Below, one piece after another: positions 35,387 through 50,451 of a stretch of 64,000 nt of DNA. The translations under genes were made by a program, and so were the position numbers. The DNA is from Alcaligenes faecalis. GTDB taxonomy: Bacteria > Pseudomonadota > Gammaproteobacteria > Burkholderiales > Burkholderiaceae_B. Location: the NCBI RefSeq assembly GCF_005311025.1, contig NZ_CP031747.1:3819870-3883869 (forward strand). The letters run 5' to 3'. The notes beneath the pieces are model-generated. The model was not told where the DNA came from and made no database searches. It was given only the letters and a program-made list of their open reading frames with translations. Position 1 is the stretch's first letter; each line of letters starts with the position of its first letter.

Positions 35387-37666
35387 TTAGATCTTGCACG
35401 CGCCGCCTGCGCAACCGTCATCCTCTACTTCGCCATGCGAATCATCGGCACCGTCGCGGGTGTTGTGGTAGTACAAGGTCTTCACACCGTATTTGTAGGC
35501 CAGCAGCAAGTCCTTGAGCAGTTGCTTCATCGGTACGCGACCACCCTCGAACCGCTGTGGGTCATAGTTGGTGTTCGCAGAGATCGACTGGTCAACGAAC
35601 TTCTGCATCACGCCAACCAACTTCAGGTAGTCGTCGTTTCCAGGCATTTGCCACAGCAACTCGTACTGATCCTTATATTTTTCAAATTCAGGCACCACCT
35701 GACGCAAGATGCCGTCCTTGGACTGCTTGACGGACACCAGGCCACGCGGAGGCTCAATACCATTGGTGGCATTGGCAATCTGGCTGGAGGTTTCCGAAGG
35801 CATCAAGGCGGTCAGGGTGGAGTTGCGCAGACCGTGCTTGACGATGTCAGCACGCAGGGCTTCCCAATCCAGGTGCAGCGGCTCGTTGCAAATACCGTCT
35901 ACATCTTTCTTGTAGGTGTCGGTAGGCAGCAGTCCCTTGGCATAGGTTGTTTCGTCAAAGGCGTCGCAAGGACCGTATTCACGCGACAACTGTACCGAAG
36001 CCTTCAACAGGTAGTACTGGATGGCTTCAAAGGTACGGTGGGTCAGGCCCAACGCTGCCGGGTCGGAGTAACGGGTGCCGTTCTTGGCCAGGTAGTAAGC
36101 GTAGTTGATGACGCCAACGCCCAGGGAGCGACGCTTGTTGGTTGCGTTCAGTGCAGCCTTGACCGGGTAGTCCTGATAGTCCAGCAAAGCATCCAGAGCG
36201 CGAACAATCAGTTCAGCCAGACCGTCCAGCTCGTCCAGGGACTCCAGAGCACCCAGATTGAAAGCCGACAGCGTGCACAGCGCGATTTCACCTTCGGGAT
36301 CGTTCAGATCGTTCAAAGGCTTGGTGGGCAGGGCAATTTCCATGCACAGGTTGGACTGGCGCACGGGAGCGCGGTCAGCCTGGAATGGGCTGTGCGTGTT
36401 GCAGTGGTCCACGTTCTGAATGTAGATACGGCCAGTGCTGGCACGCTCTTGCATCAGCAGGGAGAACAGCTCCACAGCAGGCAGGCTGCGCTTGCGGATG
36501 GCGGGATCTTGTTCGTACATCTCGTACAGACGCTCGAACTCGTCCTGGTCGGCAAAGAAGGCTTCGTACAGACCGGGCACGTCATGAGGCGAGAACAGCG
36601 TGATGTGGCTGCCCTTGATCAAGCGTTGGTACAGCAAGCGGTTGATCTGAACACCGTAGTCCAGGTGACGGATACGGTTTTCTTCCACACCACGGTTGTT
36701 CTTCAGAACCAGCAGTGTTTCCACTTCCAGGTGCCACATGGGGTAGAACAAGGTTGCCGCACCACCACGCACGCCGCCTTGCGAGCAGGACTTCACAGCG
36801 GCCTGGAACATCTTGAAGAAAGGCAGGCAGCCGGTGTGCTGAGCCTCACCACCGCGAATTTCGCTACCGACGGCGCGAATGCGACCACCGTTGATACCGA
36901 TACCGGCGCGCTGCGATACGTAACGGACAATGGCGCTGGTCGTGGCATTGATGCTGTCCAGGCTGTCGTCACATTCGATCAGCACGCAAGAGCTGAACTG
37001 ACGGGTGGGTGTGCGCACACCAGCCATGATGGGCGTGGGCAAGGAAATCTTGAATTGCGATACCGCGTCGTAAAAGCGCTTGATAAAGCCCAGGCGAGTG
37101 TCGGCAGGGTAACGGGCGAACAGGCACATGGCCACCAGCATGTACAGGAACTGGGGGCTTTCGTAAATGCGCTTGGTCACGCGGTTTTGAATCAGGTACT
37201 TGCCTTCCAGCTGCTTGACGGCACCGTAGGAGAAGTTCATGTCACGCCAGTGATCCAGATGAGCATCCAGCTCATCGAACTCGGCGCGCGTGTAGTCTTG
37301 CAGCAGATGCGGATCGTAGCGACCTTCCTTGGTTTGCAAGGTTACGTGATCGAACAGGCTTGGAGGTTCAAACTGACCAAAAGCGATTTTGCGCAGATGG
37401 AAAATCGCCAGACGGGCAGCCAGATATTGGTAGTCAGGCGTATCTTCGGAAATCAGATCCGCAGCCGACTTGATGATCGTTTCGTGGATGTCGCTAGTGC
37501 GAATGCCGTTATAGAACTGAATGTGAGAGCGCAGCTCTACTTGAGAGACGGACACATTACTCAGACCTTCAGCGGCCCAATCAACCACTCGGTGAATCTT
37601 GTCGAGGTTAATAGGTTCTGTACGGCCATCTCTTTTAGTGACCATTAACTGTTCGGTTGATTGCAT
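35387..37666 (-). CDS. nrdA: Ribonucleoside-diphosphate reductase alpha subunit NrdA
   Basis: Large subunit of class Ia reductase that makes dNDPs. The ATG at 37666 gives 759 residues (E. coli 761); the frame runs on to 37828 but crosses the NrdR boxes and has no family similarity. It has an N-terminal ATP cone (VTKRDGRTEPINLDKIHRVV), which in this family senses ATP/dATP, the active-site region with SNLCMEIALPT, and the C-terminal redox pair in GCAGGACKI. Shine-Dalgarno is weak. Expression is probably under NrdR. Confidence 0.96.
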   Translation of the reverse strand: MQSTEQLMVTKRDGRTEPINLDKIHRVVDWAAEGLSNVSVSQVELRSHIQFYNGIRTSDIHETIIKSAADLISEDTPDYQYLAARLAIFHLRKIAFGQFEPPSLFDHVTLQTKEGRYDPHLLQDYTRAEFDELDAHLDHWRDMNFSYGAVKQLEGKYLIQNRVTKRIYESPQFLYMLVAMCLFARYPADTRLGFIKRFYDAVSQFKISLPTPIMAGVRTPTRQFSSCVLIECDDSLDSINATTSAIVRYVSQRAGIGINGGRIRAVGSEIRGGEAQHTGCLPFFKMFQAAVKSCSQGGVRGGAATLFYPMWHLEVETLLVLKNNRGVEENRIRHLDYGVQINRLLYQRLIKGSHITLFSPHDVPGLYEAFFADQDEFERLYEMYEQDPAIRKRSLPAVELFSLLMQERASTGRIYIQNVDHCNTHSPFQADRAPVRQSNLCMEIALPTKPLNDLNDPEGEIALCTLSAFNLGALESLDELDGLAELIVRALDALLDYQDYPVKAALNATNKRRSLGVGVINYAYYLAKNGTRYSDPAALGLTHRTFEAIQYYLLKASVQLSREYGPCDAFDETTYAKGLLPTDTYKKDVDGICNEPLHLDWEALRADIVKHGLRNSTLTALMPSETSSQIANATNGIEPPRGLVSVKQSKDGILRQVVPEFEKYKDQYELLWQMPGNDDYLKLVGVMQKFVDQSISANTNYDPQRFEGGRVPMKQLLKDLLLAYKYGVKTLYYHNTRDGADDSHGEVEDDGCAGGACKI

Positions 37667-37735
37667 TTCAGTCTCGGAAATCGGTGAAGATTGACGGAAG
37701 ACGCGGCTTTTGCAGCCGCCAGCGTCAGTTGATGC

Positions 37736-37782
37736 ACACCATATATAGTGTGATATTGACGTCATTCTACTACATATAGCGG
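37736..37782 (-). promoter_or_regulatory. Two NrdR boxes upstream of nrdA
   Basis: Box 1 at 37736-37751, ACACCATATATAGTGT, is a near-perfect match to the NrdR consensus (ACACWATATATWGTGT). Box 2 at 37767-37782 matches 11 of 16 positions. They are 15 bases apart, the spacing usual for paired NrdR boxes on the same face of the helix. Confidence 0.88.
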
Positions 37783-37864
37783 ATTGAGCGAATAGCGGTT
37801 TTTGGACTGCAGAGCAGATTCGGCACATAAAAATGCAACCAAACTTTGCTCTGCTAACAATTTC

Positions 37865-39691
37865 CTATTGCGCCTGGAACTCTTGCACGCAGCGCAGCAA
37901 AGCCTCGCCATAGGCCTCTCTTTTGCGTACGCCTATGCCTGTAATTGGCTCCAGATCAGCCTCTGAACTAGGGCAACGAATAGCCACTTCGCGCAAAGTG
38001 GCATCATGGAAAATGACATAGGCCGGCACACCATGTTCGCGTGCGGTAGCCGCACGCCAGGCGCGCAAAGCCTCGAACCGCCTCTGCTGGTCGGGTTCCA
38101 GAGCAGGTCCGGCAGGCGCCTGACCTTTTACTCGGTGAGCAGCCGGTCCGCGTGTTACGGTTTCGCGCCGCAACATCAAGGTCCGCTCCCCTTTGAGCAC
38201 TTCACGGCTGGCCTCGGTCAGCAACAAGGTGCCGTAGCCTTCCGGATCAACGGTAACCAGACTGTGTGCCAGCAACTGGCGCAGCACCCCGCGCCAGGCT
38301 TGATCGGTCAAATCCTTGCCCACACCAAAGACGGTCAGCTTGTCGTGCTCATGCTCTTTGACACGATCCGTCAGCTTGCCCAGCAAAATGTCGATCAGGT
38401 GCCCGGCCCCGAAGCGCTGACCGCGCTCACGCCACAATCTATAGATGGTGGAGAGCATTTTCTGCGCCGCCACTGTGCCATCCCAGGCTTCTGGCGCTTC
38501 CAGGCAGGTGTCACAGTTACCGCAAGGTTCGATCTGCTGATCGAAATACGCTAACAAACGCTGACGACGGCAGGAAATGGTTTCGCACAGGCCCAACATG
38601 GCATCCAGCGCGTGACCCTGCTGGCGTCGGTGTGCCGCATCGCCTTGCGACTGGTTAATCATGCGGTGCAATTGCACCACGTCCTGCAGGCCATAGGCCA
38701 GCCAGGCCGTGGCCACTTCGCCATCGCGCCCTGCCCGCCCGGTTTCCTGGTAATACCCTTCCACCGATTTGGGCAGGTCAATGTGGGCCACAAAACGCAC
38801 ATCCGGCTTATTGACGCCCATGCCAAAAGCAATGGTCGCCACCATGACTACTCCTTCCTCGCGCAGAAAGCGGGCCTGATTGATGGCGCGCTGCTGCGCA
38901 TCCAACCCTGCATGGTAGGGCAAGGCATGAATACCGTTCTTGCACAGAAACTCGGCCGTGTCTTCCACGCGCGAGCGCGACAGACAATACACAATCCCCG
39001 CATCTCCGGAGTGCTCTTCCTGAATGAAGCTCAAGAGCTGCTTGCGCACCTCGTTCTTTTCAATGATGCGGTAGCAAATATTGGGACGATCAAAACTGGC
39101 AACAAAATGCCGGGCCTCTTCCAGCTTCAGGCGCTGGGCAATTTCTACCCGCGTCAACTGAGTGGCGGTAGCCGTCAAGGCAACCCGTGGCACACCTGGC
39201 CAACGCTGGGCCAGCAAATCCAACCCCAGATATTCAGGGCGAAAATCGTGCCCCCATTGCGATACGCAGTGGGCTTCGTCAATGGCAAACAGGGAAATCT
39301 GGCCGCGTGCCAGCAAATCCAGGCAGCGGTCTGTCAGCAAACGTTCGGGAGCCACATAGAGCAGATCCAACTGCCCCGTCAGAAATTCGCGCTCGACCTC
39401 GCGGGCGGTTTGCCAATCCTGGGTGGAATTCAGATACGCCGCGTTAACGCCCAACTCGTTGAGGGCGTCCACCTGATCCTGCATCAAGGCAATCAGGGGA
39501 GACACCACCACACCGGTGCCGGGTCTCACCAAAGCAGGAATCTGGTAACAGAGCGACTTGCCGCCGCCGGTGGGCATCAAGACCAGGGCGTCGCCGCCTT
39601 GGATCAGGGTCTCGATAATCTCGTGCTGAGAACCACGAAAACTGTCATAACCAAAAACTTCCTGAAGAACCTCAAGTGCTGACTGGGCCAT
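37865..39691 (-). CDS. recQ: ATP-dependent DNA helicase RecQ
   Basis: 3'-5' helicase in recombination and fork repair. The 608 residues (E. coli 609) show motif [17 protein letters not shown] (about 39-54), motif [21 protein letters not shown] with the aromatic-rich loop (about 134-152), and motif VI GRAGRDG. The RecQ zinc site is [13 protein letters not shown]...CGNCDTC, followed by a winged-helix and a C-terminal HRDC domain (about 525-608). It is the last gene of a tight minus-strand run, only 9 bases after the beta-barrel gene. Confidence 0.96.
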
Positions 39692-39700
39692 GCCGCCTGC

Positions 39701-40837
39701 TTAAAAAATCGGAATAGAAAAACGCAGCGCGATGTTCGACTGACGACTTTCCAGATGACGGCGAGCTTGCAAACCCACCCTAAGGTGGGGACTGTACCAG
39801 AACTGCTGCGTGACCCCAAGGTAGCGGTTCTCCCCCCCGGCAACTACCTGCTGCACCTCGTACTGAGTCTTCACTTCACCCCAGCGGCGCAGGGGCACGG
39901 ACAGACCGACAATCTGCCGACTGCTGGCCGCATCCACCTTCATGCCCTGGTAACGGCTCAAATCCAGAAAATTGTCCTGGTAGCGTTCACCCTGCCACTG
40001 CAGGTGCAAATCCTCCAGCACATCCAGGCCATAGGCTGCCTGATAACGCCAACCTTGCCCCACCGCATGGGAAGCTTTGGCCACGCTGGCCTGCCACACG
40101 CCAAAGTCCGGCGATCGATAGGTTGCACCCAGACCGGTCAGCCCAAAATCACGAGCGCTTTCCATCTGAGTATCAATACTGGTACGACTGGTGACATCGG
40201 TGCTGAGCATCAAGCTGCCGGCCGAAGAGCCATACACCAGATCCCCGTTATCCTGCTTGCCCGTCATATCCAGCGCGCCAACAGCCAGGGCATAACGCCA
40301 TGGCCCGGCCGGGCCCTGCTCGAACTGCTGAGTGATATTGATACCGCCCAGTTCCACGGGCCGCGCCCAGTCCGGTGCGGTAACCGTGTCATTGCCCAGG
40401 GTCAGCTGCAGCCCGTCTTCATTCACATAGCGCCAGTTGCGCTCGCCAAACTGCCAGACCTGGTCGGGCGCACTGCTCAACCAGCGGGCACTCCAAATTG
40501 GAGAGGACTGCTGACTATATTGGATGGAGCGCGCCAGACTGGCGGTGCTGGCACCGCTCAGACTGAAATCGGAAAATGTGTAATCCATGGAGGCCGCTGG
40601 ACTGAGCAAGTCCTGATCTCCTTGGCGATGCCACTGCGTAGCATCAAAAAATGGCTCCACAGGCGGGAGCTCCTGGGCCGGAATGGCCTGTGCCTCATCC
40701 ACGCCATACACGCGGGTAGCAGACAAATTCTCCAGCCCAACACGATTTTGAGCGGTGGCCAATGGAACAGCGAACAGCATGGCAAGACCGACCAACAGCC
40801 CGCCTGCCAAGCCTCGCTGGCAAGCTTTTGTACGCAT
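39701..40837 (-). CDS. Putative outer-membrane beta-barrel protein, usher-like, function unknown
   Basis: I cannot name this protein. The 378 residues start with a signal peptide (about 1-30, LVGLAMLFAVPLATA then Q). The rest has alternating polar and aromatic stretches typical of beta strands, and the chain ends in IPIF with a terminal Phe, as in barrels handled by the BAM complex. Segments such as WQGERYQDNFLDLSRYQG recall the barrel strands of fimbrial ushers, but it is far too short for an usher (about 800) and has no fimbrial neighbours. It sits 21 bases after the ClC gene and 9 bases before recQ. Confidence 0.6.
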   Translation of the reverse strand: MRTKACQRGLAGGLLVGLAMLFAVPLATAQNRVGLENLSATRVYGVDEAQAIPAQELPPVEPFFDATQWHRQGDQDLLSPAASMDYTFSDFSLSGASTASLARSIQYSQQSSPIWSARWLSSAPDQVWQFGERNWRYVNEDGLQLTLGNDTVTAPDWARPVELGGINITQQFEQGPAGPWRYALAVGALDMTGKQDNGDLVYGSSAGSLMLSTDVTSRTSIDTQMESARDFGLTGLGATYRSPDFGVWQASVAKASHAVGQGWRYQAAYGLDVLEDLHLQWQGERYQDNFLDLSRYQGMKVDAASSRQIVGLSVPLRRWGEVKTQYEVQQVVAGGENRYLGVTQQFWYSPHLRVGLQARRHLESRQSNIALRFSIPIF

Positions 40838-40858
40838 GATTTATGTCACAAAAAGAGT

Positions 40859-42631
40859 TTAGCGCCGGGCATCCAGCATCACTTCGCCGCTCGCATCCAG
40901 GGAGCGTTTGATGGCGGAGTATTTTTCCAGCACAGCAGACTTATAGACTACACCAATCAGACGACCCGAGCCGTCACCATTCAATACGGGCAGACGCTCT
41001 CCAGCAAAGCTCACAAAGTGTTCCTGAGCCTCGTCCAGACTCATGTTCGGGTAGAGCGTCTTGACGAAATCCATGCGCAGAATATCGCCCACCACACGCT
41101 CCTGGGCAGCGTTGTCGTCCAACAACATTCGAGTCAGGTCAGGCTGAGCAATCACACCTTGATAAACCTGCTCCTCGTTCACCACATACAAATAGCGCAC
41201 GGGGTAGTCCAGAAACATCTGCAAGGCATCGCGCATTTGAGTAGTGGTGCTGACGACGGTATCAGCTGGACGTACCAGCTCGGCCAAGGTGGTGTGACGC
41301 AACTTGTGGCGCAGCAAGGCATCGCGCTCGCGCACCAGGGTGACTTCATACATGGCGACCTCGGCCACACCACGGGACACAAAATAAGCCATGACACAGG
41401 CCACAATCAAGGGCAGCACCAACTGATAGCTCAATGTCATTTCAAACAACATCAGTATGGCCATGAAGGGAGCGCTGGTGGCGGCCCCCAGAAACGCGCC
41501 CATGCCCACCAGGGTGAACAAGTACAACGGTAAATCCAGACCCGGCAAGATCAGCAAAGTCAGTTGACCAAACAAGGTGCCAAAGGCCGCGCCCACAAAG
41601 ATGGCGGGGGTAAACACACCGCCGACAGCGCCCGAACCAACTGTCAGCCCTGTGGCCAGAACCTTGAACGCCAGGATAAGCAGCACGCTGTACCAGGCCC
41701 AGTCGCTGTGCAGCATGGAGGACACTACGCTAAAGCCATTACCGGCCACGCGCGGCATGACAATCAGCAAAAGTCCCAGCAGCAAACCACCCAAAGCCAA
41801 GCGCAAAGGCAAACCCAGGCCAGTACGCTTGAACAGGGTACGGAACAGATTCAACAACTTCAGGAAAGCGGGTGCAGCCAGACCAATCAGCACCCCCAGG
41901 ACCAGAAAGGGCAAGATGTCCCAACCTGCAACGGCCTGAACGTTCGTCATTTCGTAAGGGGCGTGATAACCACCCAGCATACGCATGGTCAGGTGAGCAC
42001 TGACAGCCGCCATCAACAGGGGGCCAAAGCTGCTCATGGTCATGGTGCCCAGCACAATCTCGGCCACAAACACGGCACCGGCGATCGGAGCGCCATAAGC
42101 GGCAGCTACACCGGCTGCGGCACCACAGGCCACCAGCAGGCGCAGACGGGCTTCACCAAACAAGGTGAAACGGCCAATCGCGGAAGCGGACAAGGAGGCC
42201 AGATGCACCATCGCCCCTTCGCGGCCAATCGAACCACCCGAGGCCACCGTCATCAAGGACGACAAGGATCGCAGCAGCCCCTGGCGAATGGACAAGCGGC
42301 CATCGCCAATGGCCACAGCTTCCATATAGTCAGAATTGCTTCCCGACGGCAGACGCCCTGCCAGCCATAGCAGGATACCGGCACACAAACCGCCCAAGGT
42401 GGGAAACAGGAGGCGCATGTACCAGGGCAGACTTTCCGTGACTGCGACGATCCCCCCGTGCTGACCCGTGACAACTTGCTGCACAAAGCGCATGCCCTGA
42501 TGAAAGGCCAAAGTCGCCAAGGCACCCAAAATACCAGCCAAGACCGCCCAGGCCAGCATGGCGGGCATATCAGACAACCACTTGAAACCCTGCAGACGCT
42601 TGCGCATCGACAGCACGGAATGGGCAATCAT
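40859..42631 (-). CDS. ClC-family chloride channel/transporter with C-terminal CBS pair
   Basis: Membrane anion protein. The first 445 residues or so hold the ClC helices; the selectivity-filter loops are GSNSDYM (98-104), GREGAMV (136-142, with gating Glu138) and GGVFTPAIFVG. Two CBS domains follow (about 455-590), linking activity to adenine nucleotides or another ligand. Aligned by eye with E. coli ClcA, the internal proton glutamate E203 is Ile192 (VAEIVLG) while the preceding Glu is kept. That pattern is typical of channel-type ClC proteins rather than 2Cl-/H+ exchangers. It starts 8 bases after the cydB-like stop; ATG 42607 is an alternative start. Confidence 0.88.
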   Translation of the reverse strand: MIAHSVLSMRKRLQGFKWLSDMPAMLAWAVLAGILGALATLAFHQGMRFVQQVVTGQHGGIVAVTESLPWYMRLLFPTLGGLCAGILLWLAGRLPSGSNSDYMEAVAIGDGRLSIRQGLLRSLSSLMTVASGGSIGREGAMVHLASLSASAIGRFTLFGEARLRLLVACGAAAGVAAAYGAPIAGAVFVAEIVLGTMTMSSFGPLLMAAVSAHLTMRMLGGYHAPYEMTNVQAVAGWDILPFLVLGVLIGLAAPAFLKLLNLFRTLFKRTGLGLPLRLALGGLLLGLLLIVMPRVAGNGFSVVSSMLHSDWAWYSVLLILAFKVLATGLTVGSGAVGGVFTPAIFVGAAFGTLFGQLTLLILPGLDLPLYLFTLVGMGAFLGAATSAPFMAILMLFEMTLSYQLVLPLIVACVMAYFVSRGVAEVAMYEVTLVRERDALLRHKLRHTTLAELVRPADTVVSTTTQMRDALQMFLDYPVRYLYVVNEEQVYQGVIAQPDLTRMLLDDNAAQERVVGDILRMDFVKTLYPNMSLDEAQEHFVSFAGERLPVLNGDGSGRLIGVVYKSAVLEKYSAIKRSLDASGEVMLDARR

Positions 42632-42639
42632 AAAAAAGG

Positions 42640-43689
42640 TCAGCCTTTAAAGCTGGGCGGCAAAGGTGGGCGGGACAATCCAAACATGCGCCAGTACACC
42701 CACACGTTGAAAATCAGCACGATGGGCAAGGTAATCACAATCGCCGACAGGATCAGGCTCAGGGCTGGCACCCCGGCAGCGGCGTCCCAGATCGTCATCT
42801 CGTCCAGGATCAGATAGGGGAAGAAGCTGAACGCCAGCCCGGCCATGATGGACACCATCACGAACAGGGTCAGCAAAAAGGGCAAGGTCGTGGTGCGATA
42901 GCTGCTGTTGATCATGCGCTGCAGGCTCATTTCAATCGACACAAAGCAGCTGAGAATCAAGGCCCACAGGAACAAGACCAAGCCCCAATACGGCCCGTCG
43001 CTCCATTTAAGCAGCACGCCGGCATTCACAAAGGCCAACACGACGGACACACCCACGGCACCGGCCGCAAACCAGCGTACCGAACGACGGCCCCAATTGA
43101 CTGCTCGGGCACGCAGCTCGCCTGCTTCACGCATGATGAGCCAGCTAGCACCTAGCAAGCAGTACGCGGCAATAGCGCAAAAGCCCATGAAGACAGAGAA
43201 CCAGATATAACCGGCATCGCTCTGAAAGCCCACTACGACCTGCGCCAGCAACACACCATGGGAGAACGCCGTCAACCAGGACCCCAGGGCAAAACCCATT
43301 TGCCAGCGGGACTGACGCTCTACCGGCGCGCGCAGTCGGAATTCGAAAGAGACGGAACGGGCAAAAACGCCCACGCCCAGCGCACATAACGGTCCGTACA
43401 GGCCGCCCATCACCGCCCCCCAGGCTTTGGGGAAAGCGCAGACAAACAAACCCAGGCCAAGAAACAGCCAGAACTCGTTGGCATCGCGCCAGGGGCTCAG
43501 CAATGACAGCATGCGGGGACGCAAGGAGTCCGGTGCCAGCAAGGACAGACAGCCCACGCCAATATCGAAGCCGTCCAGAACCGTCCCGGCCACAATAATC
43601 AAAAAGAACAGGGCCAGAAACGCCAGCGGCATCCAAAACGCCGGATCATGGGCGCCCAGGCCCAACGCATTTGCAAAAGAGTCAATCAT
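42640..43689 (-). CDS. Cytochrome bd oxidase subunit II-like protein (CydB family)
   Basis: Integral membrane partner of the CydA-like protein. The ATG at 43689 overlaps the upstream stop (ATGA), giving 349 residues with eight or nine membrane helices. CydB signatures are clear: GTVLDGFDIGVGCLSLL (about 36-52) near the first helix and TIWDAAAGVPALSLIL plus FNVWVYWRMFG near the C-terminus, as in E. coli CydB (WDATSSQ..., CYWKMFG). The call to the family is firm. Because its partner has lost the haem ligands, terminal oxidase activity is doubtful, so I avoid the symbol. Confidence 0.85.
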   Translation of the reverse strand: MIDSFANALGLGAHDPAFWMPLAFLALFFLIIVAGTVLDGFDIGVGCLSLLAPDSLRPRMLSLLSPWRDANEFWLFLGLGLFVCAFPKAWGAVMGGLYGPLCALGVGVFARSVSFEFRLRAPVERQSRWQMGFALGSWLTAFSHGVLLAQVVVGFQSDAGYIWFSVFMGFCAIAAYCLLGASWLIMREAGELRARAVNWGRRSVRWFAAGAVGVSVVLAFVNAGVLLKWSDGPYWGLVLFLWALILSCFVSIEMSLQRMINSSYRTTTLPFLLTLFVMVSIMAGLAFSFFPYLILDEMTIWDAAAGVPALSLILSAIVITLPIVLIFNVWVYWRMFGLSRPPLPPSFKG

Positions 43690-45026
43690 GCCCGCCCCCG
43701 ATGACGCGCGATCGGTACCACACCAAAACGAACGGCATGTCGCAACTTCTGGAAAAAACCAATCATGCACAAGATGTAGACCAGGCCGTAACTCAGCAAA
43801 CCCAGCCCGACGGTAAAGACGCTCTCGGTGCTTTGCACTTGCACGGCCTGAATATCGTTACCGACCAGATAAGGCAAAAAGCCCAACAAGACGTAGGCTG
43901 CGCCACCCAGCAACATGATCCAGCCCAACACCGAGGCGACCACCATGAGCTGACGTTCTCTATAAGAAAGAGAGTGCGGGTCCAGGCCATAACGGCGAGT
44001 GCGCAACAAGACCCACAGCAGCAGGAACAGCATCAAGGCTCCTGCCAGCACGGCTACACGGAAGGACCAGAAGGTCAGGGTGACGGGCGGCATGGCGTCG
44101 GAAAACTGATCCAGACCCATCAAAATGCCACTGTCATTACGCCCCAACCAGCGTCCACCTGCATGAGACCAGCGCAGCACACCCAGAACACTGTCCTGCA
44201 TGGCGGAGGGCGCCGCCACCAGAATCAAATCAGGCTGCGAGCCGCTTTCCCAGTACGCCGCCGCAGCCGCTGCCTTGGCAGGCTGATGCTCCGCAGTCAT
44301 GAAACCATTGCCTATCACAGCGAGGATCAGGGCCAGCCAAGCCACCCCGCCCAGAAACAAGGCACTGCGAAAGGCCAGACGCTCCTGGTCGGTAACCGGC
44401 TTTTGCATGGTCTGGGCGCAGGTTACACCCAACATGAAAAAGGCCACCGTCAGCAAACTGCCTGCAAACAAAAGACCGGCATACCAGGGCAAGGCGGGCG
44501 TGCTGAGCACATCCAGCCATTCCATCACCACATAATGGCCTTCAATCACATCGACACCCGTTGGCACCTGCATCCAGGCCACAATCGCCACCAGCCAGAA
44601 CGCCGTGACGGTAACGCCCAAAGCCACCATCAGCACCACCACGGTATGAACCAGATTGGACAGCATGCGCTGGGCAAACAGCATCACACCCAAAAAGCAG
44701 GATTTGAAAATGAACAAGGACAGCATGGAGGCGGCCAGCATGGGACCGATAACATCACCCACCTGCTCCATCAGGCCCGGCCAGACACTGCCAAACTGAA
44801 GCAGCACGGGCATGGACGCCGCAAAGCTTAAAATAAACGCCAGCGCAAACAGACGCACCCAAAAACGGTACGCCCCCATCCAGGCCGCGGCCTTGTTGCC
44901 AAAGGTTCTGATCTTGAAATACAGCAACACCCAGGCCAGTCCCAGCTCCAGGGCCAGAAACAGCAGCATGAAGCCCAGGCTAAGGAAAAACTGGGCATGA
45001 GACAGAGAAAGGGCGGAGTGCGTCAT
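43686..45026 (-). CDS. Divergent cytochrome bd subunit I homologue (CydA-like) lacking all haem ligands
   Basis: 446 residues, about nine membrane helices, short Q-loop. Family membership is shown by collinear matches to E. coli CydA: LSLSHAQFFLSL, LQFGSVWPGLMEQVGDVIGP, KSCFLGVMLF, VAWMQVPTGV, FFMLGVT, and FWSFRVAVLAGAL near 319-331. Yet, by eye alignment, the ligands are replaced: H19 (b595) by Met20, H186 (b558) by Leu185 with no His in 165-246, M393 (b558) by Ala325. E99 becomes Ser100, E107 Lys108, E257 Ala. R391 (Arg323) and perhaps K252 (Lys251) remain. The frame is intact and coupled to cydB-like. Probably not an oxidase; function unknown. Confidence 0.8.
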   Translation of the reverse strand: MTHSALSLSHAQFFLSLGFMLLFLALELGLAWVLLYFKIRTFGNKAAAWMGAYRFWVRLFALAFILSFAASMPVLLQFGSVWPGLMEQVGDVIGPMLAASMLSLFIFKSCFLGVMLFAQRMLSNLVHTVVVLMVALGVTVTAFWLVAIVAWMQVPTGVDVIEGHYVVMEWLDVLSTPALPWYAGLLFAGSLLTVAFFMLGVTCAQTMQKPVTDQERLAFRSALFLGGVAWLALILAVIGNGFMTAEHQPAKAAAAAAYWESGSQPDLILVAAPSAMQDSVLGVLRWSHAGGRWLGRNDSGILMGLDQFSDAMPPVTLTFWSFRVAVLAGALMLFLLLWVLLRTRRYGLDPHSLSYRERQLMVVASVLGWIMLLGGAAYVLLGFLPYLVGNDIQAVQVQSTESVFTVGLGLLSYGLVYILCMIGFFQKLRHAVRFGVVPIARHRGRA

Positions 45027-45111
45027 AATGAGCGCTAGTGTAGGGTGAATTGGCCTGCAAACGCCACCATACTACCCCAAGTTCTTCCCTGATTTTTTAG
45101 AACCCGTTCAT

Positions 45112-45125
45112 GGGGTAAATACCCC
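45112..45125. promoter_or_regulatory. Perfect 14-bp palindrome between the cydA-like gene and glnS
   Basis: GGGGTAAATACCCC (6-bp arms, 2-base centre) lies in the 161-base divergent region. A lone half-site, TACCCC, is at 45073-45078. Could be an operator for either gene; no known regulator consensus is recognised. Confidence 0.35.
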
Positions 45126-45187
45126 TCTAAAACAAGAACGTGGCAAAATGGCCGATTAGTCTGTCGGCTTCTTTATTTCAAACGTGT

Positions 45188-46945
45188 ATGACCTCTGACA
45201 CCACTCCCGCTCCCGTATCTAATTTTCTGCGCACGATCATCGACCAGGATCTGAGCGCTGGCCGTTACGCACAAAAATCCTGGGCCGGTCAGCCAGGCCC
45301 GGCCAGTACCCAGGAAGGGGCGGCTGTTGATGCCGCGCGTATCCGTACGCGCTTTCCCCCCGAGCCCAACGGCTATCTGCACATTGGGCACGCTAAAAGT
45401 ATCTGTTTGAACTTCGGACTGGCCAGCGACTACCAAGGTGCCTGCCACCTGCGCTTTGACGACACCAATCCTGAAAAAGAAGAACAGGAGTACGTGGACG
45501 CCATTATCGACATGGTGAAATGGCTGGGCTTTGACTGGACCTTCAATAAAGAAGAGAACCTGTACTTTGCCAGCGACTACTTCGACTATATGTACCAGTT
45601 CGCCGAAGCCCTGGTGAACGCGGGCCATGCCTACGTTGACGAGCAAAGCGCCGAAGAAATGCGTGCCAACCGTGGCACCCTGACTGAAAAAGGCGTGAAC
45701 TCGCCCTGGCGCGACCGCCCTGCCCAGGAGTCCATCAAGCTGCTGCGCGAAATGCGCGACGGCAAGCACCCCGATGGCAGCATGGCCCTGCGCGCCAAGA
45801 TCGATATGGGCTCGCCCAATATCAATATGCGCGACCCGGTCATGTACCGTATCCGCCATGCCGAACACCATCGCACAGGCGACAAATGGTGTATCTACCC
45901 CATGTACAGCTGGGCGCACCCTGTGGAAGACGCGCTCGAGCGCATCACCCACAGTCTGTGTACCCTGGAATTTGAAGACCAGCGTCCCTTCTATAACTGG
46001 ATTCTGGAACGCCTGGTCGAACTGGGTCAGTTGTCCGACCCGCTGCCCAAGCAGTACGAGTTCTCGCGTCTGAACCTGTCCTACGTGGTCACCAGCAAGC
46101 GCAAGTTGCGCCAGCTGGTTCAGGAAAATCACGTATCGGGCTGGGACGATCCGCGCATGCCTACCCTGGCCGGTTTGCGCCGCCGTGGTTACAGCGCCGG
46201 TGCCATCCGCCTGTTCACCGACCGCCTGGGTGTGTCCAAGGCAGCCCAACATGTGGACTACAGCCTGCTGGAACAAGCCCTGCGCGATGATCTGGACCCG
46301 GTGGCTGACCGTAGCGTTGCCATTCTGGACCCGATCGAACTGATCATTACCAATTACCCGGAAGGCCAAAGCGAGCTGTGTCACGCACCGCGCAATCCGC
46401 ACAATCCGGAAGCCGGCCAACGCGAGTTCCCCTTCTCCGGGCGCCTGTACATTGAACGCGAGGACTTCAAGGAAGAGCCGCCTAAAAAGTACTTCCGTCT
46501 GTTCCCCGGCAATACCGTGCGTCTGAAGTACGGCTATGTCGTGCGTTGCACCGGCTGCGTCAAGGACGAGCAAGGCAATGTCACCCAGGTTTTGGCGGAA
46601 TACCTGCCCGACACCAAGAGCGGCACGCCCGGCGCGGACTCGGTCAAGGTCAAGGGCAATATCACCTGGATCAGCGCCGAGCACGCGATTGCCGCCGAGA
46701 TTCGTCTGTACGACCGTCTCTTTGCCCACCCTCAGCCTGATGCAGCCGACCAGGACTTCCTGGAGCACATCAACCCGAACTCGCTGCGCGTGATTCAGGG
46801 GTGGCTGGAACCCGGCACCAAGGCTACGCCCGATGCCCGCTGGCAGTTTGAACGCCTGGGCTACTTTGTGGCGGACCGTGTAGACTCCACGCCAGAAAAA
46901 CCCGTTCTTAACCGTACTACGACTCTGAAAGACACTTGGGTCTAA
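45188..46945 (+). CDS. glnS: Glutaminyl-tRNA synthetase
   Basis: Class I aminoacyl-tRNA synthetase. The ATG at 45188 gives 585 residues; the frame is open 16 codons further up but those residues do not look like GlnRS. HIGH motif in [15 protein letters not shown] (about 57-71), substrate pocket [19 protein letters not shown], the KMSKS-equivalent [12 protein letters not shown] (about 302), and two C-terminal anticodon-binding beta barrels. minC follows 10 bases downstream, so the two are probably co-transcribed. Confidence 0.97.
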
Positions 46946-46955
46946 GGCTATTGAC

Positions 46956-47726
46956 GTGAACGATCAGACTCATGCCAAAGGGCCGCAGGCCCTGGATTTC
47001 AAAAGCGCCACGCTGTACGCCGTGCGGGTGGTGCTGCGTTCGGCTGACACGGCCGAGCAGTTAGCCGCTCTGTCTCAACGCATGAAAGACGCTGGCTCCT
47101 TCTTTGAGGACGAACCCGTCGTCATTGATGCCAGCGCTATTGATGCGCCGGTGGATTGGGCCACCCTGGTTGCCGCTTTGCGTGAGCACAAGCTGCACCC
47201 GGTGGGTATCATTGCCCACCCTGACCATGCCGATAACGCCATCGACAGCGGCTTGCCGCATGTGGAGTTGTCCAATCCGCCAGCCCGCCCCCAAACCCAG
47301 GCCGCACCGGACAAGGAAGTGCCCGTGTTGTCGCAAGCCGCCCAGCAAGAAGCACCCGCGGCGGTCGCCCCGCCACCGCCCGCTATTGCGCCGGCGGCGC
47401 TCATCATCAACCGTCAGCTGCGTTCCGGCCAGCGCATCTACGCGCGCCACACGGATCTGATCGTGATCGGGGCGGTCAGTCAGGGTGCAGAAGTGGTAGC
47501 CGATGGCAATATCCACGTCTACGGACCACTGCGCGGCAAGGCCATGGCTGGTGCCCGTGGCGATGCAAAAGCACGCATCTTCACCACCGAGCTGGACCCG
47601 GAACTGATTGCCATTGCCGGTGTGTATCGCATTATTGAAACGCGACTGGATGCACAGCTACGCAACAAGCCCGTTGTCGTCACGCTGGAAGAAGATACGC
47701 TCAGATTTGATCCTCTGAGCTCCTAG
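46956..47726 (+). CDS. minC: Septum site-determining protein MinC
   Basis: Inhibitor of FtsZ assembly that acts with MinD away from mid-cell. It starts with GTG at 46956. The 256 residues contain the N-terminal FtsZ-antagonist domain (about 14-110), a Pro/Ala-rich linker ([12 protein letters not shown]), and the C-terminal beta-helix (about 150-256) with [20 protein letters not shown] and [17 protein letters not shown], the MinD-binding face. It lies behind glnS and is separated from minD by a terminator and 223 bases. Confidence 0.94.
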
Positions 47727-47735
47727 CAGTACAAG

Positions 47736-47760
47736 GCGCCGGCTTTTGCCGGCGCTTTTT
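47736..47760 (+). terminator. Intrinsic terminator after minC
   Basis: GCGCCGGC / GCCGGCGC, an 8-bp stem with a TTTT loop and a following T-run, 10 bases after the minC stop. Confidence 0.9.
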
Positions 47761-47766
47761 ATAGAG

Positions 47767-47807
47767 GCTTGCACTGAGAGCCCGCATGAGAGCAAGCAAG
47801 TGCAAGC
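47767..47807. repeat. 9-bp inverted repeat between minC and minD
   Basis: GCTTGCACT at 47767-47775 pairs exactly with AGTGCAAGC at 47799-47807, with 23 bases between, rich in GCAAG. It lies beyond the minC terminator and upstream of minD, where it could form a hairpin or a protein site. Confidence 0.35.
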
Positions 47808-47949
47808 GCAACCGTGTAAGCTGACACGGAACAAAGCAATTGATATGTTTTGTTTCTAAGCAGTAGGCTAAGTGGCAGAACGGATGTCAAAATTAGGCCC
47901 GTTATGCTTTACGATTATGTGACTTGAAAAACAAAGGAATCCGATTGTC

Positions 47950-48765
47950 ATGGCGCGTATAGTTGTAGTGACCTCCGGCAAGGGTGGCGTGGGCAAAACC
48001 ACCACCAGTGCCAGTTTTGCATCTGGTCTTGCGATGCGCGGTCACAAGACCGTGGTCATCGACTTTGACGTCGGCTTGCGCAACCTGGACTTGATCATGG
48101 GTTGCGAGCGACGCGTGGTGTATGACTTCGTCAACGTGATCCAGGGCGAAGCCACATTGAACCAGGCCCTGATCCGTGACAAGCAGCTGGAAAATCTATT
48201 CATCCTGCCCGCTTCCCAGACGCGTGACAAAGACGCGCTGACCCGCGAAGGTGTGGAAAAAGTACTGGAAGAGCTCAAGGGCATGGGTTTTGAATACATT
48301 GTGTGCGACTCGCCCGCAGGTATCGAAACCGGCGCCTTGATGGCCTCCTACTTCGCAGATGATGCGCTGGTTGTGACCAACCCCGAAGTGTCCTCGGTTC
48401 GTGACTCGGACCGCATCCTGGGCATTCTGGCCGCCAAATCGCGACGTGGTGAACAGGGCAAAGAGCCCATCAAAGAATATTTGTTGTTGACCCGTTATAG
48501 CCCCAAACGCGTGTCGGACGGCGAGATGCTGTCCTTGCAAGACGTTGAAGATATCTTGCGCATCAAGCTGATTGGTGTCACCCCCGAGTCGGAAACCGTG
48601 CTGCAAGCATCCAACCAAGGAGTACCCGTTATCCATATCAAGGAAAGTGATGTGTCCCAGGCCTATCAGGACATCGTAGATCGTTACCTGGGTGGCGAAA
48701 AACCATTGCGTTTTGTGGATTACGAAAAGCCAGGTCTGTTCAAGCGCCTGTTCGGAGGAAAGTAA
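47950..48765 (+). CDS. minD: Septum site-determining ATPase MinD
   Basis: Membrane-cycling ATPase that recruits MinC and is released by MinE. The 271 residues (E. coli 270) show the deviant Walker [20 protein letters not shown] (about 10-28), [19 protein letters not shown], the switch region [12 protein letters not shown] (about 118), and a C-terminal amphipathic membrane helix, LFKRLFGGK. The AAAGGA upstream is a fair ribosome site. It is the first gene of a minD-minE unit with its own promoter region. Confidence 0.97.
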
Positions 48766-48766
48766 T

Positions 48767-49045
48767 ATGTCTTTCCTGTCCTTCCTGCTCGGTCACAAGA
48801 AAACGTCGGCAACAGTTGCCAAGGACCGTCTGCAACTGATCCTTATTAACGAACGTGGCCAAGGGGGTGTTGCCCCGGACTACTTGCCCCGCTTGCAAAA
48901 AGAGCTGGTCGAAGTGATCTCGCGCTACGTGAAGATTAATCCCGATGACATCAAGGTGAACCTTGATCGCCAGGACTCGCTGGAAGTGCTGGAAGTCAAA
49001 ATCGAAATGCCGCAAATTGATGCCAGCACGCTGGAAAACAAGTAA
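48767..49045 (+). CDS. minE: Cell division topological factor MinE
   Basis: Stimulates MinD ATPase and drives pole-to-pole or rotating patterns. The start at ATG 48767 follows a good GGAGG, one base after the minD stop; the 92 residues comprise a membrane-binding N-terminus MSFLSFLLG, the MinD-activating helix [15 protein letters not shown] (about 16-30) and the dimer domain ending KIEMPQIDA. All features are typical. Confidence 0.97.
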
Positions 49046-49076
49046 AGCGTCGCTGACAGAAAAACTTTGCTGCTTG

Positions 49077-49106
49077 AAATGGCCATCCCTTGCGGATGGC
49101 CATTTT
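49077..49106 (+). terminator. Intrinsic terminator after minE
   Basis: AAATGGCCATCC / GGATGGCCATTT stem with a short loop, ending in TTTT, about 30 bases after the minE stop. Confidence 0.85.
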
Positions 49107-49189
49107 CATGGCTGCTCCCTATACCAAAAGCGAGCCGCAAAACACCTGCAACGAGCAGCGCAATGCGGCTAGGCGGCTAATAGATCAGG

Positions 49190-49258
49190 TACAATTTTCC
49201 CTTGGTAATCGGCCCGTTCCGATTTTTCTTCGCGCCAGAGATGGCAAGTAGTGCCATC
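49190..49258 (+). promoter_or_regulatory. Structured leader of the Rieske oxygenase gene
   Basis: A TACAAT hexamer (49190-49195) may be the -10 of the following gene. Downstream are two hairpins: AATCGG/CCGATT (49207-49212, 49219-49224) followed by TTTTCTT, like a weak terminator, and GATGGCA/TGCCATC (49240-49246, 49252-49258). The ribosome site comes about 35 bases later. It could be an attenuator or simply a leader; no known riboswitch class is recognised. Confidence 0.35.
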
Positions 49259-49302
49259 GATGTCCCCTGAGGCCTGGCTTATTGACCCATGCGGAGGGAA
49301 TC

Positions 49303-50451
49303 ATGACCGAGCTCGGTCAGATGGCACGTCTTGTGCCCGCTCACCCCCAGCTTCCTGTTAGCGCCTATTTCGACCACGCTCTGTTCGAGCGCGAACAAGA
49401 GCGTATTTTTCAGCAGTCGGCCTTGTACGTCGGCAATGAAAAACTTGTTCCCGAACCCGGCGACTGGCGCACCTTGATCCAGGAAAACGCTGCCCGTACT
49501 CTGATACGCAGCCAACACGGCGTAGAACTGCTCTCGAACGTCTGCAGGCATCGTCAGGCCCTGATGCTTGGTGGCATGCCCGGCCAGCCCAATCAGGCCA
49601 ACCACGGCTCCCTGAGCAGCACAGGCGGCAATATTGTCTGCCCCCTGCACAACTGGACTTATAACGCGCAAGGCGACTTGCTGGCGGCTCCCCGTTTCAA
49701 GGACAAGCCCTGTCTGAACCTGGAACGCTACCCCTTGCGCGATTGCCATGGCCTGCTGTTTGAAGGCCCGCGCGATCCAGCCCAGGATATGGCCGCCTTG
49801 TTCAGCCGCCCTGAATTCGACTTTCAGGACTATGTGCTGGATCACGTCGAAATCCACCAGTGCAACTACAACTGGAAGACCTTTATCGAGGTCTATCTGG
49901 AGGACTATCACGTCGCCCCCTTCCACCCCGGTCTGGGTCAGTTCGTGACCTGTGATGACCTGGAGTGGGAGTTCAGCGACTGGTATAGCCTGCAACGAGT
50001 CGGCGTGCATCAGGCCCTGGCCAATCCAGGCTCACCTACCTATCGCCAATGGCATGACAATCTGCTGGCCTACCGCCAGGGCGAAGCACCGGATTTCGGT
50101 GCCGTCTGGGTAACCTACTTCCCCACCCACATGATCGAGATCTATCCGCATGTGCTGGTGCTCTCTACGCTGTACCCCAAGGGGCCGCAGGAAACCATGA
50201 ATGTGGTGGAGTTCTACTACCCGGAAGACATCGTGGCCTTCGAGCGTGACTTTGTGCAAGCACAACGCGCCGCCTATATGGAAACGGCCATAGAAGATGA
50301 TGAGATTGCCGAACGTATGGATGCCGGCCGCCGCGCCTTGATGGAGCGTGGGGTCTGCGAGGTAGGCCCCTACCAGTCACCGCTGGAAGACGGCATGAAG
50401 CACTTTCACGAATGGTATCGCTCCATGATGGACGAGCGGCACCACCCGTAA
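49303..50451 (+). CDS. Rieske non-haem iron oxygenase, alpha-subunit type
   Basis: Probable mono- or dioxygenase. Starting at ATG 49303, just after a strong GGAGGG, gives 382 residues. The Rieske domain has the 2Fe-2S ligands CRH (SNVCRHRQAL, about 87-90) and CPLHNWTYN (about 113-121). The catalytic domain holds DYHVAPFHPGL (about 202), the two-His iron motif, with Asp farther on. The size resembles the choline/carnitine/glycine-betaine monooxygenase branch as well as ring hydroxylases, so the substrate is open. No reductase or ferredoxin gene is adjacent; electron donors must come from elsewhere. Confidence 0.83.
   Translation: MTELGQMARLVPAHPQLPVSAYFDHALFEREQERIFQQSALYVGNEKLVPEPGDWRTLIQENAARTLIRSQHGVELLSNVCRHRQALMLGGMPGQPNQANHGSLSSTGGNIVCPLHNWTYNAQGDLLAAPRFKDKPCLNLERYPLRDCHGLLFEGPRDPAQDMAALFSRPEFDFQDYVLDHVEIHQCNYNWKTFIEVYLEDYHVAPFHPGLGQFVTCDDLEWEFSDWYSLQRVGVHQALANPGSPTYRQWHDNLLAYRQGEAPDFGAVWVTYFPTHMIEIYPHVLVLSTLYPKGPQETMNVVEFYYPEDIVAFERDFVQAQRAAYMETAIEDDEIAERMDAGRRALMERGVCEVGPYQSPLEDGMKHFHEWYRSMMDERHHP

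Follow-up and report, generated by a model that had tools for sequence, protein, structure and literature searches.

A cytochrome bd-like gene pair of Alcaligenes faecalis and its relatives lacks nearly all haem ligands of CydA and is very probably not a terminal oxidase

In the CydA subunit of Escherichia coli cytochrome bd, haem b558 is held by H186 and M393, and H19, E99, and E445 serve as ligands of haems d and b595. The ligand roles are described in part in PMC5322542, and the available text of PMC13189123 proposes E107 as the terminal proton donor, gives the proton path as K53/K57/D105B/D58B/E107/E74, and places R391 in an inhibitor pocket. The CIO label, which we use for CioAB-type oxidases, rests on a short Q-loop as described in the available text of PMC5322542. 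The superfamily also contains members departing from the quinol oxidase pattern, and the OR-N type CydAA' is regarded as an O2-reducing pairing of two CydA paralogues (available text of PMC10839748). Tallies of terminal oxidases and predictions of low-oxygen respiration draw on cydAB genes. The cydAB3 pair of Bordetella bronchiseptica carries a homology-based annotation as a bd oxidase; the accessible part of the same report describes low cydAB3 transcripts and a single deletion that was wild-type-like in air and dispensable in mice (PMC11257404). The pair bp3224-3225 was described as a second bd oxidase that was not expressed in the laboratory (PMC12914433, available text), and these Bordetella oxidases were annotated by computation only (PMC13367067, available text).

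The window analyzed in this study, a 64,000-nucleotide stretch of an Alcaligenes faecalis genome of 4,204,139 bases in one contig, carries a related gene pair on its minus strand. The A gene (43686..45026, minus strand) encodes a 446-residue CydA homologue. An earlier note on this DNA had described the gene, with no strand stated, as full-length and uninterrupted, which was borne out by the open reading frame, by the Pfam profile PF01654 (E 5e-75, residues 8-433, profile positions 1-415 of 418), and by sequence matches to solved cytochrome bd CydA chains (E down to 3.7e-25). The B gene (42640..43689, minus strand) encodes a 349-residue CydB homologue (PF02322, E 1.6e-57), with a 4-nt overlap between its ATG and the TGA that ends A. 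A longer, GTG-started B reading frame reaching 43770 on the minus strand is less likely because the orthologues begin near the ATG at 43689. The pair shares its Pfam families and the solved-chain match with E. coli bd-I CydAB(X); unlike that enzyme, it has replaced haem ligands, no long Q-loop, and no cydX after B in the window, where the next gene lies 8 nt past B and leaves no room for one. The partner of A is a PF02322 protein rather than a second CydA paralogue, and the pair differs from the OR-N type in being an A and B combination without ligands.

The gene 8 nt beyond B encodes a CLC channel (PF00654) and is followed in the window by a reading frame at 39701-40837, for which no Pfam match was found, and then by recQ. 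Divergently upstream of A lies a class I tRNA synthetase gene for Glu/Gln, which is taken as glnS, with minCDE farther out (named by eye). We aligned the intergenic region common to A and glnS (45027..45139, no strand assigned) across 15 loci, nine of which came from one genus sample. By eye, a -10-box-like CTA(A/C)ACTA was observed directly 5' of the A ATG in 14 of the 15 loci, the exception being L020, and a Shine-Dalgarno sequence before A was not evident in window 45027-45045 or in the 14 other loci. The lack of this sequence together with the motif adjoining the ATG suggests that the A transcript is leaderless. A simple pattern search identified no FNR-like boxes 5' of A in the 15 loci, and an Rfam scan of window 37000-49500 returned no match.

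The residues of A were placed by MAFFT alignment against E. coli CydA, and codon coordinates (all minus strand) were obtained by arithmetic. The b558 ligands H186 and M393 are absent (L185, 44472..44474; A325, 44052..44054), as are the haem d and b595 ligands H19, E99, and E445 (M20, 44967..44969; S100, 44727..44729; L380, 43887..43889), and the proton donor E107 is replaced by K108 (44703..44705). Further replacements were observed at R9 (H10), E74 (L75), N148 (V149), and D239 (I238) and, near the C-terminus, at W441 (A376) and R448 (F383). K53 and K57 correspond to R54 and R58, R391 is kept as R323 (44058..44060), and, at the Q-loop sites, K252 is kept as K251 and E257 has become A256. The by-eye assignments of the earlier note for H19, H186, M393, E99, E107, and E257 were reproduced in the alignments, and its remark that no histidine lies within 165-246 agrees with the histidines of A (3, 10, 127, 164, 247, 288, 351, 430, and 442). 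A register error, which the note had also discounted, is unlikely because the second CydA of the same genome (L001, G000:C1:1350527) retains all ligands in the same alignment.

The replacements recur in orthologues, where the earlier note had proposed to look for them. Matches to A with E 1.8e-73 or better and at least 37% identity, some of them partial, were found in at least 93 of 151 genomes of the family, a count of matches within which ligands were read in the aligned subset; 29 of 41 relatives gave an A match, canonical CydA included. This family (f1), which includes Alcaligenes and Allopusillimonas, appears to be Alcaligenaceae. After duplicate entries of any locus, L076 (cut at a contig end), and L098 (broken) were excluded, 81 A and 80 B proteins were aligned, comprising 26 canonical, 52 window-type, and 3 odd members. 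Removing 7 near-copies left 45 non-redundant window-type A proteins, and counts over 44 omit L089, which has no extracted B. The results revealed that E99, E107, H186, N148, and E257 were lost in all 45. Survivors among 44 were few at H19 (2), M393 (3), E445 (1), and R448 (2) and more numerous at W441 and R9 (11 each). L020, from genome G016, retains H19, M393, W441, E445, and R448 together and may still bind haem; L075 retains H19 and W441, L074 retains W441 and R448, and L017 and L083 retain M393. Among the 51 columns invariant in 25 canonical CydA proteins, 19 were kept at 90% or more in the 44 members; these are mainly G, P, W, and F plus R391, with no named ligand among them. The count omits canonical L026, in which H19 is absent, the N-terminus reads differently, and PF01654 positions 1-45 lie on another contig.

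The nearest sequences outside the clade are of the CIO type (32-33% identity), which resemble the window pair in their short Q-loop and in forming an A and B pair but differ in their intact ligands: among the matches listed, all 20 fetched from other families keep H19, E99, E107, H186, M393, and E445, and three of the 20 carry single changes at N148 or K252. The A profile, run against 300 genomes from the order, scored 648-665 bits in six of them, all of the family, and no higher than 425.5 bits outside it; the B profile, run against 398 genomes from the phylum, scored 598 bits in its own genome and at most 307 elsewhere. A partial literature search recognized no haem-ligand-less CydA in print. 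In an IQ-TREE analysis that included 73 A proteins, one side of a 100/100 branch consisted of the 25 canonical rows, and the window-type sequences were thus separated from canonical CydA in the tree that the earlier note had called for. L020, L084, and L074/L075 adjoined the canonical branch (88/89, an open placement), and farther from it lay a group of eight rows, followed by the 34-row group of the window together with L107 and L054. The tree is unrooted, its root unproven, with L054 and L084 on long branches, and the label of the 45 rows required 3 changes because the odd rows are nested. A FastTree analysis of B rooted on E. coli placed the 71 non-canonical rows together with a support of 0.91. 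With the canonical rows assumed as outgroup, the A tree fits a course in which E99, E107, H186, N148, and E257 would have been lost early and the other sites later. Because CIO is nearest in sequence, we infer descent from a short-Q-loop, CIO-like oxidase, although in the unrooted tree the clade does not fall within CIO.

To evaluate selection, we determined dN/dS by the Nei-Gojobori method in 36 pairs from nine genomes of the genus. The median was 0.048 (maximum 0.126) for A and 0.011 (maximum 0.041) for B. Because the losses recur in orthologues and dN/dS is low, both subunits are under purifying selection and are not decaying. A pseudogene family on its way out could produce graded losses, shortened A forms, and a case such as G139, in which A is broken and B is open, but the low ratios speak against it, as do A frames that are open in the other extracted clade loci, bar contig-end cuts, and a glnS locus retained in 36 of 37 loci; we regard this explanation as extremely improbable. 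Ligand losses common to orthologues under purifying selection make it very probable that the window pair does not hold the three haems as bd oxidases do and is no terminal oxidase, as the earlier note had proposed for A.

The earlier note covered A alone, and B proved to be the better conserved half of the pair. Among the 1275 clade pairs drawn from 51 sequences, near-copies counted, 1270 showed a higher identity in B than in A (means 61.5% for B and 47.7% for A). Among canonical pairs, this was the case in 7 of 276 (means 39.2% for B and 47.1% for A), L028 and L030 being left out for their cut B. In five matched genomes, the ten clade pairs averaged 51% for A and 58% for B and the canonical pairs 78% and 66%; B exceeded A in 10 of 10 clade pairs versus 0 of 10 canonical pairs.

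Other residues, most of them charged, are conserved in the clade. R54, R58, and R323 of A are present in 45 of 45 members, and residue 108 (E. coli position 107) is Lys in 42 and Arg in 3. In B, D39, D42, D69, N71, R111, E116, R118, and R120 are present in 44 of 44. E116 (43342..43344, minus strand) occupies the position of E. coli D105, and R68 (43486..43488, minus strand), Arg in 44 of 44, stands where canonical CydB has W57 in 26 of 26; R205, at canonical L209, is likewise found in 44 of 44. The acidic sites D58 and E105 (E. coli numbering) are kept in 44 of 44 B proteins, with D58 changed in some loci with a short A. Position 107 of A and position 105 of B are paired as K/R with E in the 44 members and in most short-A loci. 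In L119-L121, one clade of three, the charges are reversed (A107 is E and B105 is R), an alignment that is less sure because of gaps near B105; the exceptions to the pairing are L123 (K, C) and L124 (Q, E).

These residues also bear on the possibility that one or more haems are still bound through other residues, for example Lys108, in an unusual redox enzyme. Lysine can ligate haem, and K/R107 and R391 are both present in 45 of 45 members; L020 keeps several ligands; and B offers a newly conserved Cys171 (43 of 44) and a conserved Met186 (44 of 44), so that Lys107 or Cys171 are conceivable ligands. Nevertheless, no newly conserved His, Met, or Cys was found in A at 90%, H127 and M115 being common in canonical CydA as well (25 of 26 and 18 of 26, respectively), position 107 is Glu in L119-L121, and R9, W441, and R448 are seldom kept. 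We therefore consider such binding rather improbable. For the suggestion of the earlier note that A might be a new redox protein, A supplies no newly conserved His, Met, or Cys, and what it can draw on is the Lys/Arg at 107 and the single new Cys (C171) in B. The ion-conducting scaffold also named in that note is a possibility.

To extend the sample, we examined 57 genomes of the family picked mainly for having no full-length A match, among which 42 showed a B-profile match; judged by score, many of these 42 were canonical or of the CIO type. In 17 loci, the gene 5' of B was read: A was full length in L108, broken in L109, 496 aa long in L122, and short in 14 (363-430 aa; genera g14, g39, g48, and g56). 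All 14 short forms lack most of window A residues 244-292, the Q-loop region. When the start codon closest to the expected position was chosen, A and B overlapped by 4 nt in 15 of the 17 loci and in every short form except L112 (a 66-nt gap) and L124 (8 nt). These findings weaken the quinone-linked role that the earlier note had considered, as E257 is lost throughout, position 252 among 44 members is K in 30 and R in 11, and the 14 loci dispense with most of the Q-loop.

We analyzed the neighborhood of the pair across genomes. glnS lies beside A in 36 of 37 clade loci, the remaining one (L088) ending at a contig edge, and in 0 of 5 canonical loci; in G022 (L054), glnS was not found within 16 kb. 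CLC as a functional partner was weakened, with the gene present in only 19 of the 37. recQ follows B directly in L082 and L092, and kinase-like and response regulator genes on the other strand follow B in L048, L052, and L087 (the L052 regulator identified by Pfam, the kinases by eye).

The variable surroundings bear on a haem-free structural or regulatory scaffold that would hold or regulate another membrane protein and move neither ions nor electrons. The kept structural G/P/W/F columns, the GVVPV stretch near the C-terminus of A (33 of 45 members and 8 of 14 short forms), and the stronger constraint on B are all consistent with a scaffold; no constant third gene is found nearby, CLC giving way elsewhere to recQ or to a regulator and kinase, although a distant partner would escape view. 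We regard the scaffold as plausible but not likely. A related proposal, that the pair serves as an accessory or assembly factor for a genuine cytochrome bd of the same cell, is very unlikely. Most genomes with the window type do show at least two CydA matches, the second usually canonical by score, but the pair is a complete A and B pair by itself, and in G014, G066, and G148 (99% complete drafts of 40-60 contigs) the sole PF01654 protein is of the window type, which weakened the role of assembly partner.

We further compared the clade with Bordetella CydAB3 (BB4012-4011; BP3224-3225). The extent of the published cydAB3 deletion puts the two start codons 1338 nt apart (PMC11257404, available text), and a spacing of 1331-1345 nt was found in 43 of 54 clade loci versus 2 of 26 canonical loci. 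The deletion length alone was ruled out as an identifier because two canonical loci share this spacing, and we therefore checked the neighboring genes. The ompR-family gene BP3222 shares an operon with BP3223, the kinase RisK (PMC5020355, available text); by number, both adjoin BP3224, as the kinase and regulator genes adjoin the pair in clade loci such as L052. By length and neighbors, rather than by its own sequence, CydAB3 is probably a member of the window pair's family. The two differ in that CydAB3 has been published as a terminal oxidase by annotation. That annotation by homology (PMC11257404, PMC13367067, in the text available) is what favors a terminal oxidase that works through an alternative site. 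Against this, the haem ligands named above are replaced, as is E107, the proton donor, and a B. bronchiseptica strain with cyd3 as its sole oxidase locus could not be generated, for which low expression is another possible reason: the authors cite low transcription, and the attempt failed likewise for cco, cio, ctaD2, and cyo2 alone (PMC11257404, available text). A working oxidase is very unlikely. One cydAB pair of the family is very probably no oxidase, and the Bordetella work counts what is probably the same pair as one.

On balance, we favor, as more probable than not, an explanation in which a cytochrome bd pair of the family ancestor would have lost its haem ligands stepwise and would have been retained as a membrane complex of two subunits that neither binds haem nor reduces oxygen. 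Its strong part, a pair that is haem-free and no oxidase, is very probable. At the A/B interface, the polar path that delivers protons to the haem d site in bd oxidases would persist in B (E. coli D29, D58, D/E105, and R100), and its inner end would have been recharged by K/R107 of A and R57 of B. The reversed charges of L119-L121 count in favor of this explanation, whereas L123 and L124 do not fit them. B, with its charged interface, may then have taken on a task outside redox chemistry, for example the regulated movement of ions or protons, and A would be its partner. That ion movement is the job of the pair is a tentative suggestion, possible though not likely. The fuller reading, in which an oxidase turned into a haem-free complex moving ions or solutes, with CydB, formerly the accessory subunit, as its working part and with living intermediates in one family from the ligand-bearing form of G016 to the forms without a Q-loop, is likewise possible though not likely. 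The family presents a graded natural series in which a redox enzyme would lose its cofactors while the supporting subunit becomes the most constrained part, a series that opens both CydB and the proton path to tests of roles outside catalysis.

Several odd forms were observed in addition. In G139, a 1.8 Mb draft (L098 / L109), a stop breaks A and B is open, possibly through a sequencing error. The 496-aa A of G055 (L084 / L122), at the glnS locus, carries a long C-terminal extension, and its B is diverged (37% identity with window B). At G111:C1:3891239-3892506, a canonical-like CydA lies in pieces, one of which has two internal TGA codons, beside an open CydB-like gene. In Bordetella, BP3224 is among the genes with homopolymer tracts, its tract being 9 versus 6 in BB4011 (PMC1891110, available text), and a stop or frameshift in cydB3 is reported for 7 of 14 B. 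pertussis strains (PMC11257404, available text).
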